A DNA stretch of 20,546 nucleotides. It comes from a virus. Positions within the stretch are counted from its first letter, which is position 1; every line of letters starts with the position of its first letter. The translations under genes and the position numbers were made by a program. The notes under the pieces are model-generated. The model worked only from the letters and a program-made list of their open reading frames with translations, was not told the origin of the DNA and did not search any database. Shown piece after piece: positions 3,732 through 11,731 of the stretch. The stretch spans positions 1 through 20,546 of the IMG/VR virus record IMGVR_UViG_3300039043_000066; one strand, written 5' to 3'.

Positions 3732-3952
3732 TGAGTGCATTTAAGAAACAAGTCGGTGGAATACATTATAAAAATCATAAAATACAACCTTATGAATTTA
3801 TTCAAGAAAATAATTTAAATTACTTACAAGGCGTAGTTATAAAATACATAGTTCGATATCCACAGAAGAATGGAATACAAGACTTGGAAAAGATCATTCA
3901 CTATTGTCAATTAGAGATCGAAAGGTTAAAGAATGGTAATGGCAAGAATTAA
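3731..3952 (+). CDS. DUF3310 family protein
   Basis: The protein has 73 residues. The pattern VGGIHYKNHKIQPYEFIQENNLNY, then VIKYIVRYPQKNGIQDLEKIIHY (each split here from a longer block), is that of DUF3310, sometimes labelled a nucleotide-kinase-like SaV protein, found in very many phages. The conserved core is the HY..IQP.E.I...L....G..IKY..RY..K.G..DL.K..HY layout. The ATG at 3731 overlaps the preceding TGA by one base and is preferred over an in-frame TTG at 3728. The biochemical role is not established; it often sits with nucleotide-metabolism genes, which fits the TSCPD-like neighbour. Confidence 0.8.
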   Translation: MSAFKKQVGGIHYKNHKIQPYEFIQENNLNYLQGVVIKYIVRYPQKNGIQDLEKIIHYCQLEIERLKNGNGKN

Positions 3953-5930: not shown

Positions 5931-6004
5931 ATATATAACACTACTAGGACTATTGTAAGAAATCCTAGAAATGGTAGTAAAAAATAATATAATAAAGTTT
6001 CCAT
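5897..6004 (-). CDS. 35-residue single-pass membrane peptide
   Basis: The ATG at 6004 overlaps the stop of the preceding gene (TAATG), and GGAGGA lies 8 bases upstream in that gene's last codons. The product starts METLLYYFLLPFLGFLTIVL, a single membrane segment that continues to about residue 25, and ends in KMFIDEFGEL. The final ten residues recur, with two changes, at the end of the downstream zinc-finger protein. Function unknown. Coupled starts on both sides support that it is expressed. Confidence 0.6.
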   Translation of the reverse strand: METLLYYFLLPFLGFLTIVLVVLYIKMFIDEFGEL

Positions 6005-6258
6005 TATTTTAGTCCTCCAATAAATGTTTGAGAAGTACCTTTAACTGCATAAAACATAAATTTACGCTTATCATAATTTTCTGTTGTATAGCGTTTTAAC
6101 ATATCCAAAGCGTGAAAATATGCTTCTTTATATGTACCATATTCAATACGCAAACTTTTGTCTCTAGGCTTGTAATAGACACAAGTAAAATAATCTGCAT
6201 TTTGCAGCACATCTAAATCAAATGCATCTAGTTTTCTTTTTTTGTTATTTATATACAT
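6004..6258 (-). CDS. Small protein of unknown function, first gene of the second leftward unit
   Basis: This 84-residue protein begins MYINNKKRKLDAFDLDVLQN and contains ADYFTCVYYKPRDKSL and EAYFHALDMLKRYTTENYDKR. No family was recognised. It is translated from the strong TTGGAGGTAATAA leader, which has the same design as the leader of the ArdC-like gene. It opens a run of four overlapping or abutting small genes (6258 to 5499) with their own candidate promoter at 6295-6324, so it may be made early and in quantity. Confidence 0.65.
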   Translation of the reverse strand: MYINNKKRKLDAFDLDVLQNADYFTCVYYKPRDKSLRIEYGTYKEAYFHALDMLKRYTTENYDKRKFMFYAVKGTSQTFIGGLK

Positions 6259-6260
6259 TT

Positions 6261-6276
6261 ATTACCTCCAAGTAAT
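6261..6276 (-). promoter_or_regulatory. Inverted repeat with the Shine-Dalgarno sequence in its loop (copy 1)
   Basis: On the - strand this reads ATTACTTGGAGGTAAT: arms ATTAC and GTAAT around TTGGAG. It is identical, all 16 bases, to the site at 10472-10487. It could be a protein operator on DNA or RNA, or a small hairpin that exposes the ribosome binding site. Confidence 0.6.
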
Positions 6277-7230: not shown

Positions 7231-7314
7231 TAGAGGTGAGCGGGGGAGTATTGGAGGTAATGCCCACCTCTATATCTAATATGTGCGAAAGCTCCGATTA
7301 AAAAACACATATTA
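7231..7314 (-). ncRNA. Structured leader: tandem hairpins with an anti-Shine-Dalgarno loop
   Basis: Read on the - strand, hairpin I (7314-7277) has a perfect 9-bp stem TAATATGTG/CACATATTA and a 20-base loop. After a 4-base linker, hairpin II (7272-7231) has an 11-bp stem TAGAGGTGGGC/GCTCACCTCTA with one G-U pair and a 20-base loop that contains ATTACCTCCAAT. The G-U pair would be an A-C mismatch on the other strand, which argues for function in the leftward transcript. The loop is the complement of the TTGGAGGTAAT ribosome binding sites at 6261 and 10472. GAGGT also has a second possible partner, ACCTC within the loop, so two folds compete. It is the leader of the gene starting at 7215. No known RNA family was recognised. 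Confidence 0.5.
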
Positions 7315-7320
7315 AATTTT

Positions 7321-7890
7321 TTATCTATTTGATAGAAATACTGTTACTACTAATTTTTGTAGTGCGTCTAGATCTCTGCCAAAGAATTTAAAAAACTCTT
7401 TTCCACGACAAGCCATAAATGCCATTTCCATATCAGTAGCTTTAGTTTCAAATGGATTATTAGATATAACAGGTTCAATTTTTCTAACATTATTTTGCAA
7501 ATCTTTTTCAGCTTCTTTTGCAAGTTGTTCAGCTATTCTTTCTTGTTCATCTTCATCTGCTATTTCATCTATGGCTTTATTAAATTCATCTTCTGCATTA
7601 TCTGTACTAGGCATTTTAATAACTTCTACTGTTGCTGGATCTATATTTAACCAACCATCATTATTAACCCAATCACAACTAATCTGAGCACCTTCAACTA
7701 GCCAATCTGGGCTAGGTTTATTATTATGAAACATATTAGTAGTACAATTTTTAAATTTTAAATCATACTTTTTAAAACTTTTAATATATTCCATAGTTTC
7801 ATTTGTTGGATCTAATGGCTTTAAAGCAAAGCCTATTGTTTTAATATTACGATCAAAGACTTTAGTAATTTCACAATTAATTGTCTGCAT
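7321..7890 (-). CDS. Unknown protein paired with the nuclease gene; possible OB-fold/DNA-binding partner
   Basis: The 189-residue protein has a beta-rich N-terminal half (ITKVFDRNIKTIGFALKPL, GAQISCDWVNNDGWLNID), an acidic helical linker (EDEFNKAIDEIADEDEQER), and a C-terminal helix with FFKFFGRDLDALQKLVV. It starts within the nuclease gene (14-base overlap), so the two are translated together. Phage recombination exonucleases are often encoded next to a single-strand binding or annealing protein, and the N-terminus could be an OB fold; both points are inference. No family motif was recognised. Confidence 0.55.
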   Translation of the reverse strand: MQTINCEITKVFDRNIKTIGFALKPLDPTNETMEYIKSFKKYDLKFKNCTTNMFHNNKPSPDWLVEGAQISCDWVNNDGWLNIDPATVEVIKMPSTDNAEDEFNKAIDEIADEDEQERIAEQLAKEAEKDLQNNVRKIEPVISNNPFETKATDMEMAFMACRGKEFFKFFGRDLDALQKLVVTVFLSNR

Positions 7891-8638
7891 TTTGTTCTCC
7901 TTTCAAGAGATTTTTTATTTGTTGTTGAAAGTTCCCACTATCTTTATAGTAGAATATATTAGTATCTGGTATGGGAAACATATCTAACCAATCTTGTTTT
8001 GAATTACACATATCATCTATGCGTTCTATCCATTTCATATTTTGTTGAACTATTTCCCATTCCTCAACTAATAATTTTTGGGGTATTTCAAAGAAATTAT
8101 ACTTTTTATTTGTAGAATATAAAAGAGCAAATTTTCTTTTTTTTCCACTTAAACCCCAATAAAATGCTTGTTGCCTAATATGATCTGTCTTAGGTTCACT
8201 TGGCAAAGCACCTGTGCTTTTAAGATCTACTGTTATATTGTCATAAGTAAAATCAGCAAATCCTATTTGATAAAATTTATAACTCGGCAAATGATCTTGA
8301 AATTTCTCTTGATAAATTTTAGGTCTTTTTAATTGTCTTTCTTCTAATGCTTGTGTAAATAATTTTGATGAATCAAATATCCATTGTATATTTTTCTCAT
8401 CTTCACCTTGTATAAGATCCCAAGATTTTCTAATATATTTAATTAAATCTTCATCTGTTGGGTCTCTATGTAATGTAAATCTAGTTGCACTTTCAACTAC
8501 ATTACCACGCTTCATCTTGTCATTAGATAATGATTTAATATTGAACATCTGTTCAGCAATACTCTTTGTAGGTGCATTAACCCAACCATTTATTTTACTA
8601 GGTGAATGACGATAACCTATATCAGTAAGTATAGACAT
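7877..8638 (-). CDS. PD-(D/E)XK nuclease (Cas4/exonuclease-like)
   Basis: The 253-residue protein has the layout of the PDDEXK_1/Cas4-like nucleases: an N-terminal HSPSKINGWVNAP (11-23), RGNVVE (44-49), G126-F-A-D129, the catalytic VDLKST with D138 and K140, and Q156-xxx-Y160 (QQAFYW). It should cut DNA in a metal-dependent way, probably as an exonuclease. No four-cysteine iron-sulphur cluster typical of Cas4 or AddB is visible. In phages such enzymes serve recombination, replication or host-DNA breakdown. The ribosome binding site TTGGAGGA sits inside the preceding membrane-peptide gene, whose end overlaps the start by 22 bases. Confidence 0.8.
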   Translation of the reverse strand: MSILTDIGYRHSPSKINGWVNAPTKSIAEQMFNIKSLSNDKMKRGNVVESATRFTLHRDPTDEDLIKYIRKSWDLIQGEDEKNIQWIFDSSKLFTQALEERQLKRPKIYQEKFQDHLPSYKFYQIGFADFTYDNITVDLKSTGALPSEPKTDHIRQQAFYWGLSGKKRKFALLYSTNKKYNFFEIPQKLLVEEWEIVQQNMKWIERIDDMCNSKQDWLDMFPIPDTNIFYYKDSGNFQQQIKNLLKGEQNADN

Positions 8639-8712
8639 AATATTCCTCCAATTAATAATCCCAATATTATCTTTTTACCCCAAGATGTAAAGTAGCTATT
8701 CTTGTATTTCAT
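8617..8712 (-). CDS. 31-residue membrane peptide
   Basis: Reading from ATG 8712 gives a basic start (MKYKNSYFTSWGKK) and one membrane segment (IILGLLIGGILCLYLLI) ending at the stop. AGGTG lies six bases before this start; an ATG two codons earlier is nearly on top of it and is less likely. The ORF spans the gap between the zinc-ribbon gene and the nuclease, overlapping both, which is typical of a coupled gene. Function unknown. Confidence 0.5.
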   Translation of the reverse strand: MKYKNSYFTSWGKKIILGLLIGGILCLYLLI

Positions 8713-9579: not shown

Positions 9580-10470
9580 TTATGCTACCTCTTTTTTTTC
9601 GTTGGTTTGTAAATCTTTTAAATATGAATAAGATTTCTGAGCCATAGTACAGGCTTTTAAAAGTAAACTTGGTTGATCTTTTAATCCTTTAATCCAACCA
9701 TTAAGATATTTTGCGTGATTTTCCATTGGCTGTTTAGTAATACCTAACATTCCACATAATATAGCCGATCCTAATTCTGCAACTAATTCTTCAAATGCGT
9801 AAGCGTTAGATGCAAAACCATTATTAATATCTCTATTAAGTCTGTCTTTATGTCCTGTCCAATGTGTTAATTCGTGAAGTAATGTTGAATAATAAAATGT
9901 TTCTTTAGATATATCTTTATTTGATTTCCAAGTATCTAAGGGTGACATATTTATTAAATCTTCACTTGGTATATAAAAACATCTACCGCTTTTATTATGA
10001 ACTATTTTAGCTTGAGTATTTTTTACAAATAGATCTACTGTTTTATTTCTTTCTATAAGATCTAAAGGCATAGGCTCTACGTTTTCAAATAGTTCTGGTT
10101 TAACATCTTTAAGATTTGTTTGATCAATATTAAAAACGTGATACCATTTTGTAATAGGTGTATCTTCTTCTTCATCAAATCTAAAAAATTTAATAGCAGT
10201 ACCTTTTTCACCTTTAAGAATACGACCACCAAATTTATTAGTCTGTCTTAATGTTATCCAAGTATTTTGTTTAAATTTATAATTTTCTAATAATAAAATA
10301 AATAAGTTCATACCACTATAAGTAGTTCCTTTTATATTTTTAGGAAAAATACCTACACCATATTCTGAATTACCAGTAAATGGTTTAAACCAATCTTGTT
10401 TATCATTTTGCATTAATGCAATAACTTTATTTGCGATTGCTGATGTTTTTTGTAATTCGTAATTATTCAT
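9580..10470 (-). CDS. ArdC-like antirestriction protein (ssDNA-binding domain plus zincin metallopeptidase)
   Basis: The 296-residue protein joins two known parts. The N-terminal ~125 residues (WFKPFTGN, YSGMNLFILL, WITLRQTNKFGGRILKGEKG, WYHVFNIDQTN) match the ArdC/DUF1738 single-strand-DNA-binding domain. The C-terminal part is a zincin: LLHELTHWTGH with HELTH at residues 199-203 and the third ligand in AFEELVAELGSA (about 227-232). ArdC of plasmids protects incoming DNA from restriction. The true start is the ATG at 10470 behind GGAGGTAATA; the frame continues upstream through a TTG that is part of the ribosome binding site. It is the first gene of the main leftward unit, as expected for a function needed at DNA entry. 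Confidence 0.85.
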   Translation of the reverse strand: MNNYELQKTSAIANKVIALMQNDKQDWFKPFTGNSEYGVGIFPKNIKGTTYSGMNLFILLLENYKFKQNTWITLRQTNKFGGRILKGEKGTAIKFFRFDEEEDTPITKWYHVFNIDQTNLKDVKPELFENVEPMPLDLIERNKTVDLFVKNTQAKIVHNKSGRCFYIPSEDLINMSPLDTWKSNKDISKETFYYSTLLHELTHWTGHKDRLNRDINNGFASNAYAFEELVAELGSAILCGMLGITKQPMENHAKYLNGWIKGLKDQPSLLLKACTMAQKSYSYLKDLQTNEKKEVA

Positions 10471-10471
10471 T

Positions 10472-10487
10472 ATTACCTCCAAGTAAT
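10472..10487 (-). promoter_or_regulatory. Inverted repeat with the Shine-Dalgarno sequence in its loop (copy 2)
   Basis: Identical over 16 bases to 6261-6276 (ATTACTTGGAGGTAAT on the - strand). It is the ribosome binding site of the ArdC-like gene, five bases before the ATG. Confidence 0.6.
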
Positions 10488-10504
10488 TTATGTTAATATC
10501 TTAT

Positions 10505-10534
10505 TTAATAATATTTAACATTTGCTGTAAACAA
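10505..10534 (-). promoter_or_regulatory. Candidate leftward promoter with TTGTTTACAGC box (copy 2)
   Basis: On the - strand TTGTTTACAGC (10534-10524) is followed by TATTAA (10510-10505) at the same spacing as in copy 1. It lies 53 bases before the ArdC-like ATG and back-to-back with the rightward promoter, whose -35 begins four bases beyond the box. Confidence 0.5.
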
Positions 10535-10538
10535 TTTA

Positions 10539-10567
10539 TTGACTTTATTTTTTGGCTGATTTATTCT
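10539..10567 (+). promoter_or_regulatory. Candidate rightward sigma-70 promoter
   Basis: TTGACT (10539-10544), a 17-bp spacer and TATTCT (10562-10567) match the -35/-10 consensus well. Transcription would begin near 10574, exactly at the first base of the hairpin 10574-10624. It would drive the genes from 10633. Confidence 0.6.
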
Positions 10568-10573
10568 GTTTTA

Positions 10574-10624
10574 AGGGCATAGTTTCTTATTACCTCCAAT
10601 TATAAGTCCTTTCAGCTATGCCCT
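10574..10624 (+). ncRNA. 5'-end hairpin with CCUCC (anti-Shine-Dalgarno) apical loop
   Basis: A perfect 9-bp outer stem AGGGCATAG (10574-10582)/CTATGCCCT (10616-10624) encloses an inner stem CTTAT (10586-10590)/ATAAG (10602-10606) whose 11-base loop is TACCTCCAATT. TTATTACCTCCAA is the exact complement, over 13 bases, of TTGGAGGTAATAA at both leftward leaders. The hairpin sits at the predicted start of the rightward early transcript, eight bases before the ATG at 10633. It may act in trans or be a 5' regulatory element. On the - strand the same text could be a ribosome binding site for an 11-codon ORF. Confidence 0.5.
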
Positions 10625-10632
10625 ACTAAAAA

Positions 10633-10965
10633 ATGTATAGATCTATAGAGCATTTAAATTTTATTAGAAAACAACCTTGTATAATAAGTGATCAGTTAGA
10701 TAGCCAAGCCTGTCATATTAGAATATTATCTGATGCTGGTGTAGGTTTGAAGCCAAGTGATTTTGCAATACCTATGACTTATTATTATCATAGAATGTCA
10801 CACGATATTGGTGAGATAAGATTTTTTAAAAAATTTAATATCAATCCCTATGATTTTGCTATATTTTATGCAAAAAACAGTCCTTGTAAAAAAATTACAA
10901 GAGAACATTTGGAATACTTAAATGAAAGGAAGAGTATTTATGAGAGGTTATATAAAAATAGATAG
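10633..10965 (+). CDS. Ref/HNH-like phage protein with degenerate zinc cysteines
   Basis: The 110-residue protein follows the pattern of a phage family that includes the P1 recombination-enhancement nuclease Ref: SIEHLNFIRKQPC (4-16), ACHIRIL, GVGLKPSDFAIPM, then YYYHRMSHDIGEIRFFKKFNI. Usual members have PCxxC near the start and PLCxxHHxxxH later; here they read PCIIS and PMTYYYHRMSH, so two expected cysteines are absent while the histidines mostly remain. It might have lost metal binding or nuclease activity. No Shine-Dalgarno sequence precedes the ATG; the leader is taken up by the hairpin 10574-10624, suggesting unusual translation initiation. Confidence 0.6.
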   Translation: MYRSIEHLNFIRKQPCIISDQLDSQACHIRILSDAGVGLKPSDFAIPMTYYYHRMSHDIGEIRFFKKFNINPYDFAIFYAKNSPCKKITREHLEYLNERKSIYERLYKNR

Positions 10966-11731
10966 AGGTTTACTTCTGCACCCAGCTTTAACAAAGAAAG
11001 ATAGATCGTTCTGTGAAGTTGGTGCTTTTATCTGGTTATTACTAGAAGCAAGTTTTGCAGATCGTAAATTTAGAATACAAAATCAAGAAATAGATTTAAA
11101 AAGAGGTCAACTCTGCCATTCTATTAATTATATGGCTAAAGCATTTAATTGGGACAGATCTAAAGTTCAGCGTTTTTTAAATAGATTAAAAGAAAATAAC
11201 ACGATTACAACAGATACACCAAGTAATACACCAGCTGATACACCAAATATCATTACTATAACTCATTATGATGACTATCAAGATATGCCAAATGATACAT
11301 CAAGTGATATTAAACATAATAAATTAAATAATAAAGGTAAAGAATATATAAGCGAATTTAATGATTTGTGGGGCAAATTAAGAGCTAAAAAAGGTTCAAA
11401 AAAGAAAGCACAAGATAAATATTTAAAAATAAGATCTAAAGTTAAAGCTAATACTCTTATTGAAAAATATAATAAACTATGTGATGAAACAAAAGATTTT
11501 ACATATATTCCGCATTTTATAACTTGGTTAAATGGTGAAAGATATCTTGATGATGATAAAATTGAGACAAAACCAAAAGAAATGACACCAGATCAATATT
11601 TTAGAAAAAGATTTGGAGGTGTTCCAGATGGTTATGTAAATGTTGGAAATAATTGGTCAGAAATAGAATATTCAAACGGAACGGATAGAATTATATTTAG
11701 TTTAAGAGATGGTGAGAAAATTAATGACTGA
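10940..11731 (+). CDS. Replisome organiser (phage replication initiation protein)
   Basis: The chosen start, ATG 10940, gives MRGYIKIDRGLLLHPAL with AAGGAAGAG upstream; an ATG at 10922 would add six residues. The protein (263 residues) has the classic N-terminus of phage O/DnaD-like replication proteins: AFIWLLLEASFADRKFR, DLKRGQLCHSINYMAKAF, then WDRSKVQRFLNRLKENN, a winged-helix DNA-binding domain, followed by TITHYDDYQ. After a low-complexity linker of TPSNTPADTP type come FNDLWGKLRAKKGSKKKA and YIPHFITWLNGERYLDDD, the usual C-terminal region that contacts helicase or loader. It should bind the phage origin, often located in its own gene. It overlaps the Ref-like gene by 26 bases. Confidence 0.8.
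   Translation: MRGYIKIDRGLLLHPALTKKDRSFCEVGAFIWLLLEASFADRKFRIQNQEIDLKRGQLCHSINYMAKAFNWDRSKVQRFLNRLKENNTITTDTPSNTPADTPNIITITHYDDYQDMPNDTSSDIKHNKLNNKGKEYISEFNDLWGKLRAKKGSKKKAQDKYLKIRSKVKANTLIEKYNKLCDETKDFTYIPHFITWLNGERYLDDDKIETKPKEMTPDQYFRKRFGGVPDGYVNVGNNWSEIEYSNGTDRIIFSLRDGEKIND

Follow-up and report, generated by a model that had tools for sequence, protein, structure and literature searches.

A covarying leader hairpin in a viral contig and its relatives, with a loop complementary to ribosome binding sites of divergent leftward genes

A virus contig record of 20,546 bases (the window, by which we mean the whole stretch of DNA that was analysed) carries, at the predicted start of its rightward transcript, a hairpin, hp1, whose loop is complementary to ribosome binding sites (RBSs) of leftward genes. 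By comparison among relatives, hp1 is a real conserved RNA, and the sequences make it rather probable that this leader shuts off translation of the early leftward operons in trans. The terminase and portal of the window are nearest to those of the SAR11 phages HTVC111P, HTVC112P, HTVC202P and HTVC026P (54-57% identity), and therefore a SAR11-type host is likely. SAR11 bacteria are among the most abundant marine bacteria, and gene timing in their phages is poorly understood; in the RNA-seq study of the pelagiphage HTVC027P, the functions of all early genes were unknown (PMC12753301).

The divergent region and the genes used below are arranged as follows.

10503-10531, minus strand: putative leftward promoter-like site read from the sequence, TTTACA (10531-10526), 17 nt, TTAAAT (10508-10503)
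10539-10567, plus strand: rightward promoter-like site TTGACT-N17-TATTCT, with the predicted start of the presumed transcript at the stem base, 10574
10574-10624, plus strand: hp1, leader hairpin with an anti-Shine-Dalgarno (anti-SD) loop, recognised by folding and covariation
10587-10599, plus strand: hp1 loop segment TTATTACCTCCAA, complement of the leftward RBS TTGGAGGTAATAA
10608-10613, plus strand: second hp1 loop motif CCTTTC, complement of the GAAAGGG RBS of clade B relatives
10633-10965, plus strand: first rightward gene, with a weak HNH endonuclease family match and a homologue annotated as DUF968, without an SD; an anchor for relatives
10922-11731, plus strand: DnaD-like helicase loader gene; an anchor for relatives
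9580-10470, minus strand: first leftward gene, ArdC-like; predicted target of hp1
6004-6258, minus strand: first gene of the second leftward operon; predicted target of hp1
7877-8638, minus strand: Cas4-like nuclease gene; predicted target of hp1

The two promoter-like sites stand back to back. The rightward one, named in the initial annotation of this DNA, is present upstream of the hairpin, and such a site alone is ordinary (46 in 7 kb versus 47 expected). Gene content and layout point to the leftward genes as early genes. In the window, the first of them is an ArdC-like antirestriction gene, and relatives have different small genes in that position; the RBS cassette remains constant while these genes swap between contigs, which we read as a probable slot for exchangeable early genes behind a constant promoter and RBS cassette.

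In the window, the outer stem of hp1 consists of 9 bp between the arms AGGGCATAG (10574-10582) and CTATGCCCT (10616-10624) and is lengthened by two more pairs, U10583-G10615 and U10584-A10614; the inner stem has 5 bp (CTTAT/ATAAG, 10586-10590/10602-10606), and the loop is the 11-nt TACCTCCAATT (10591-10601). The initial annotation had described this geometry of a 9-bp stem, a 5-bp inner stem and an 11-nt loop, and every letter of it is in place. The RNA folds at -15.7 kcal/mol (z -3.3 to -4.2), a stability equalled by 0 of 200 dinucleotide shuffles. A 13-base match to the RBSs of both leftward operons had also been claimed and was borne out: TTGGAGGTAATAA occurs in exactly three copies in the 20.5-kb record, all on the minus strand (6259-6271, 10470-10482 and 10587-10599). 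Three elements had been overlooked, namely the CCUUUC loop motif, the loop-matching RBS of the gene starting at 8638 and a leftward anti-SD hairpin at 7231-7272. The second loop motif is kept in 14 of 16 lineages as CCTTTC or CCCTTTC. A U-run directly behind hp1 is absent from the window (ACTAAAAAATG), and T7 stands there only in the lineage of L076, L077, L103 and L104; hp1 as an intrinsic terminator or stand-alone sRNA was rejected, a reading that fails without a U-run, except in L076 and L103.

Relatives were gathered by way of three genes: the ArdC-like one, the HNH/DUF968-like one (10633) and the DnaD-like one (10922). hp1 was found in every contig with sufficient DNA upstream of the 10633 homologue, with the stem base ~33-36 nt downstream of TTGAC, a spacing that is constant across all relatives, and all eligible contigs were included in the member set (the window, L054, L065, L099, L103, L102, L134, L117, L118, L066, L105, L106, L078, L114, L080, L083, L110, L108, L086-L088, L112, L107, L111, L113, L115, L116 and L090). 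Ten distinct stem sequences occur, for example AGGGCATAG, GAGGCTAGT, GTGGCTAGT, GAGGCAATC, GAGGAGGAC and AGGGTAGCT. Because whole-hairpin MAFFT alignments misplace the arms, pair counts were confined to the nine outermost pairs per arm. Counted in this way, 90 of 90 pair cells are formed, a complete pairing that is somewhat favoured by placing members by gene order and then recognising them by stem and motif, and two-sided changes occur in seven of the nine pairs. The covariation score was reached by 0 of 500 shuffles, and slid controls were 38-61% paired. Compensatory stem changes, which the initial annotation had proposed to look for, were thus found in ten stems with all pairs retained; the stem decay that it had named as speaking against its idea is the opposite of what we observed, the stems having been rewritten with their pairing intact. 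Seven of the cells form G-U pairs when read on the rightward strand; these are A-C on the other strand, which are mismatches in a DNA cruciform, and therefore the rightward RNA, rather than a DNA palindrome, is the likely carrier. The loop keeps CCUCC and/or CCCUUUC while the stem sequence changes, and it is the comparison of sequences that brings out the hairpin, its strand and its constant loop. Model R1, built from clade B, detects clade B only, and the membership of clade A rests on synteny and motif. A DNA-level search with hp1 among isolated phages returned nothing related, prophage relatives sought in sequenced genomes yielded none, and Rfam 15 gave no match to hp1 even at E 10, nor any match elsewhere in the window with gathering scores as the cut-off.

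When the gene starts of the window were ranked as partners of hp1, the best three of the 43 were all leftward.

8639-8663, minus strand: RBS region TTAATTGGAGGAATATT of the Cas4-like gene (start 8638), duplex -23.0 kcal/mol, rank 1 of 43
10470-10482, minus strand: RBS cassette TTGGAGGTAATAA(TG) of the ArdC-like gene (start 10470), duplex -19.9 kcal/mol, rank 2 of 43
6259-6271, minus strand: RBS cassette of the gene with start 6258, duplex -18.5 kcal/mol, rank 3 of 43

The pairing of these three starts with the 16S tail is only average. With opening costs included, -14 to -19 kcal/mol are left for the three targets (-19.2 for the 8638 start); shuffles of the RBS regions retained much of the G-run and were a poor control. 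Gene starts led by TTGGAGG in the window are all leftward. In 19 of 19 contigs, which are kin and so not 19 independent events, hp1 places the first leftward gene higher among its partners than the 16S tail does, with a median rank fraction of 0.10 versus 0.33. In clade B, a rightward start, that of the DnaD-like gene, is likewise a high-ranking hp1 partner, and therefore self-regulation through this start may be possible there.

A match between the loop and the leftward RBS is further supported by the two clades. The leftward RBS of clade A is GGAGG, and its loops never lose CCUCC and sometimes lose CCUUUC (L102 and L134); that of clade B is GAAAGGG, and its loops never lose CCCUUUC while CCUCC decays (to CCUCU in L080 and L110, and to CAUCU in L108). 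Loop/RBS duplexes average ~-16 to -17 kcal/mol within a clade versus ~-11 kcal/mol across clades, much of the pairing being the common SD core. In the tree of the adjacent protein, the switch from GGAGG to GAAAGGG lies on one branch and is therefore counted as one event. Within the clades, cognate loop/RBS pairs did not differ significantly from permuted ones (p = 0.28 and 0.08).

We propose that the rightward transcript would start at the base of hp1, the loop of which would present an anti-SD sequence. After the onset of rightward transcription, the loop would pair in trans with the leftward RBSs (10470, 6258 and 8638), and this pairing would cover them and block translation, the outcome being an RNA switch from the leftward early genes to the rightward programme. 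We infer here the transcription start, the pairing in the cell, the translation block and the timing. An antisense action of this kind had been suggested in the initial annotation, and the covarying stems, the clade-wise match, the target ranks and the cultured relatives described below all speak for it. If true, an RBS-recognising leader hairpin would constitute a compact switch that needs no protein, and the lineage-specific RBS would act as a "password" through which a phage could silence early genes of its own and leave others alone.

Leaders with comparable segments are present in cultured pelagiphages. HTVC111P has a 12-bp leader hairpin with the loop CCUCUCUCU (z -5.1), HTVC202P one with AUUCUCUC (z -6.4) and HTVC026P one with UUUCUCUCUCU (z -6.0), and the leader of HTVC112P carries CCTTTCTAGTT, the 11-nt complement of its first leftward RBS. 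Six leftward starts of HTVC111P are led by GGAGAGA (3763, 3557, 3369, 2036, 1870 and 12524). In tests that were exploratory, having been run after the pattern had been noticed, GGAGAGA leads 6 of 13 leftward versus 0 of 51 rightward annotated starts in HTVC111P (p = 2e-5), and TAGAAAGG leads 3 of 10 leftward versus 0 of 48 rightward starts in HTVC112P (p = 0.004). An ATG inside the DnaD gene of HTVC111P is likewise preceded by GGAGAGA, and HTVC202P is less clean, with one rightward GGAGAGA start. The layout of HTVC026P is inverted, the early genes running rightward with GGAGAGAG and the hairpin leader leftward, which we read as an inverted arrangement that probably follows the same logic. In a comparison with the 16S tail, the early genes of HTVC026P and HTVC111P have stronger SDs anyway, which counts against the proposed reading.

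These four phages resemble the window family in their related terminase and portal and in an anti-RBS leader segment divergent from the early operon, but they differ in their RBS types (GGAGAGA and TAGAAAGG) and loops, and model R1 does not match their leaders. The leaders therefore appear analogous to hp1, a likeness in layout that stands apart from hairpin descent. We found no earlier description of the leaders of these four phages, and as the phages are cultured, the idea is directly testable. Some annotated starts look wrong, namely 3790 in HTVC111P (L094) and 3781 and 3889 in HTVC202P (L098): GGAGAGAAAATG stands a few codons downstream of the first two (at 3763 and 3754, respectively), and the gene with its start at 3889 crosses the hairpin leader.

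The initial annotation had also suggested that hp1 could hide, or stand in for, the RBS of the 10633 gene, and this part found no support, as gene order breaks the link between hairpin and gene: ~0.7 kb lie between hp1 and the 10633 homologue in L114/L079, no ATG stands just behind the hairpin in L108, and the homologue starts ~60 nt further downstream in L086-L088. hp1 travels with the promoter rather than with the 10633 gene, and the candidate role of hp1 as the RBS of its own gene was rejected on this ground and on that of the missing SD. In a broader cis-acting role, the 5' hairpin of the rightward mRNA would protect the 5' end or control its own first genes, for example through a loop pseudoknot with a downstream RBS, and the loop would be kept for that; we consider this unlikely. 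The hairpin does stand at the predicted 5' end, with an ATG within ~8-12 nt behind it in most contigs, the first rightward gene of HTVC111P and HTVC202P has an AGAGAGA SD able to pair with the loop, and in clade B the loop also pairs with the start of the DnaD-like gene, which this mRNA carries as well. However, the first rightward gene of the window family is without an SD, the gene behind the hairpin changes or moves while hairpin and promoter stay (L114, L108 and L086), and a stabiliser needs no loop that tracks the leftward RBS type.

It is quite improbable that the loop serves as a general anti-SD decoy, copying parts of the 16S 3' tail (CCUCC and CCUUUC) and damping host or phage translation at large. 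Both motifs do lie within the 16S tail CCUCCUUUCU, which is common to many bacterial genomes, including alphaproteobacteria among the matches listed (in this genome scan, none of the matches listed was named as SAR11), but loop and tail order the targets differently in all 19 of the related contigs, the UCUCUC loops of the cultured phages differ from the tail and fit their own early RBSs, and titration of all mRNAs by one leader RNA is hardly feasible. Highly improbable, in our estimation, is an operator, that is, a site for an RNA- or DNA-binding protein shared by the leader and the leftward RBS, with the SD likeness secondary. As DNA, the motif forms a direct repeat that flanks the divergent promoters, with copies 117 bp apart in the window, as an operator might; yet a DNA operator leaves the compensatory stem changes with G-U pairs unexplained, and the leftward motif always sits exactly at RBS distance, before different genes. 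Next to no probability attaches to the hairpin serving on its minus strand as the ribosome binding and start site of a small leftward gene, with the palindrome incidental: this strand reads GGAGGTAATAAGAAACTATG in the window, but the ORF has 11 codons there and is ATG-CCC-TAA in L001, other stems are without an ATG at this place, and the stem covaries. Coding on this strand, be it for a leader peptide or as a leftward gene, was accordingly rejected, the ORF having 11 codons or one. In our judgement, neither the cis role nor the decoy nor the protein site accounts jointly for the covarying stem, the RBS-tracking loop and the inverted layout of HTVC026P.

The proposed trans-acting leader would work like other RNAs with anti-SD loops, while hp1 itself has no match among the Rfam families. 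The alpha-r14/cuckoo sRNAs (NfeR1) of alphaproteobacteria combine a constant unpaired anti-SD motif with highly variable stems, and their pairing with RBSs stops translation start (PMC10746234). hp1 likewise joins a constant anti-SD loop to a variable stem, with ten stems and the loop motif kept. However, the alpha-r14/cuckoo RNAs are separate host sRNAs with three hairpins, each with an unpaired CCUCCUCCC, whereas hp1 is one hairpin at a phage mRNA 5' end that has CCUCC and/or CCCUUUC, not CCUCCUCCC, and its loop differs according to which RBS type the phage itself uses; the alpha-r14/cuckoo RNAs repress by covering the RBS, which for hp1 is a predicted pairing. The C4 antisense RNA of P1/P7 carries loop sequences that are the complement of an RBS region in a phage mRNA, the translation of which is blocked (PMC12197685), and hp1 is similar in the complementarity of its loop to RBS regions of phage mRNAs. 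C4 targets the ant mRNA for immunity in temperate phages, whereas hp1 is the leader of a divergent operon, with no immunity genes noticed, and none of the curated covariance models of Rfam 15 matches it. In Staphylococcus aureus, RNAIII and RsaA recognise RBSs through an unpaired UCCC seed in hairpin loops (PMC3961350); these C-rich loop sRNAs differ from hp1 in being bacterial and multi-target and are unrelated in sequence and structure. A leader of a divergent operon whose loop follows the RBS type was not found described in the open-licence papers that were searched.

A second hairpin, hp2, lies within the leftward operon.

7231-7272, minus strand: hp2, loop ATTACCTCCAATACTCCCCC, between two leftward genes

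Its folding is z -3.6 on the leftward strand versus -0.7 on the other. The stems of hp2 covary in relatives, with two-sided changes in six of nine pairs and a score that no shuffle attains, and the hairpin is also present in L054, L065, L099, L103, L134, L117, L118, L105, L114, L083, L150, L108, L113, L115 and L116. In clade A, it has CUCCCCC plus ACCUCCAA, and leftward GGAGG starts once more make good partners. CUCCCCC is also kept in clade B, where the partners are inconsistent and the GGGGAG RBS doubles as code for E-F-G-E-L-stop. At hp2, Rfam gave no more than chance-level matches. Within the leftward operon, hp2 may add a delayed self-shut-off of the same genes. On the widest reading, for which we see the case as evenly balanced, pelagiphages would share an RNA-based shut-off of early genes: of two divergent operons, one would bear in its leader an anti-RBS hairpin or segment in coevolution with the RBS cassette of the other, with at least four RBS types (GGAGG, GAAAGGG, GGAGAGA and TAGAAAGG), and some genomes would add a second hairpin in the silenced operon for delayed self-repression.

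Several further structures were observed. Just upstream of hp2, a 13-bp hairpin at 7274-7322 on the minus strand (TTTAATATGTGT...ACATATTAGA) has a loop that holds CGGAGC in the window, and similar hairpins occur in L054 and L103. A common 10-bp palindrome, TACTACCAAC-CCTCCGAAGAAA-GTTGGTAGTA, is found in phages of both clades (L134 1382-1413 and L117 1050-1081), and its minus-strand loop holds GGAGG. In L114 (L079), the 10633 homologue lies behind an inserted segment and starts at 5986, directly after the perfect hairpin GGGGAG-TATAATAG-CTCCCC-TATG. Finally, TTTGGGGAGTTATA(A/G)AATG precedes unrelated leftward genes (5702 and 5895 on the minus strand of the window; L150 1228, L107 576, L113 1051 and L116 851); the string doubles as the EFGEL-stop end of the preceding gene, so that this joint looks like a place of gene exchange.
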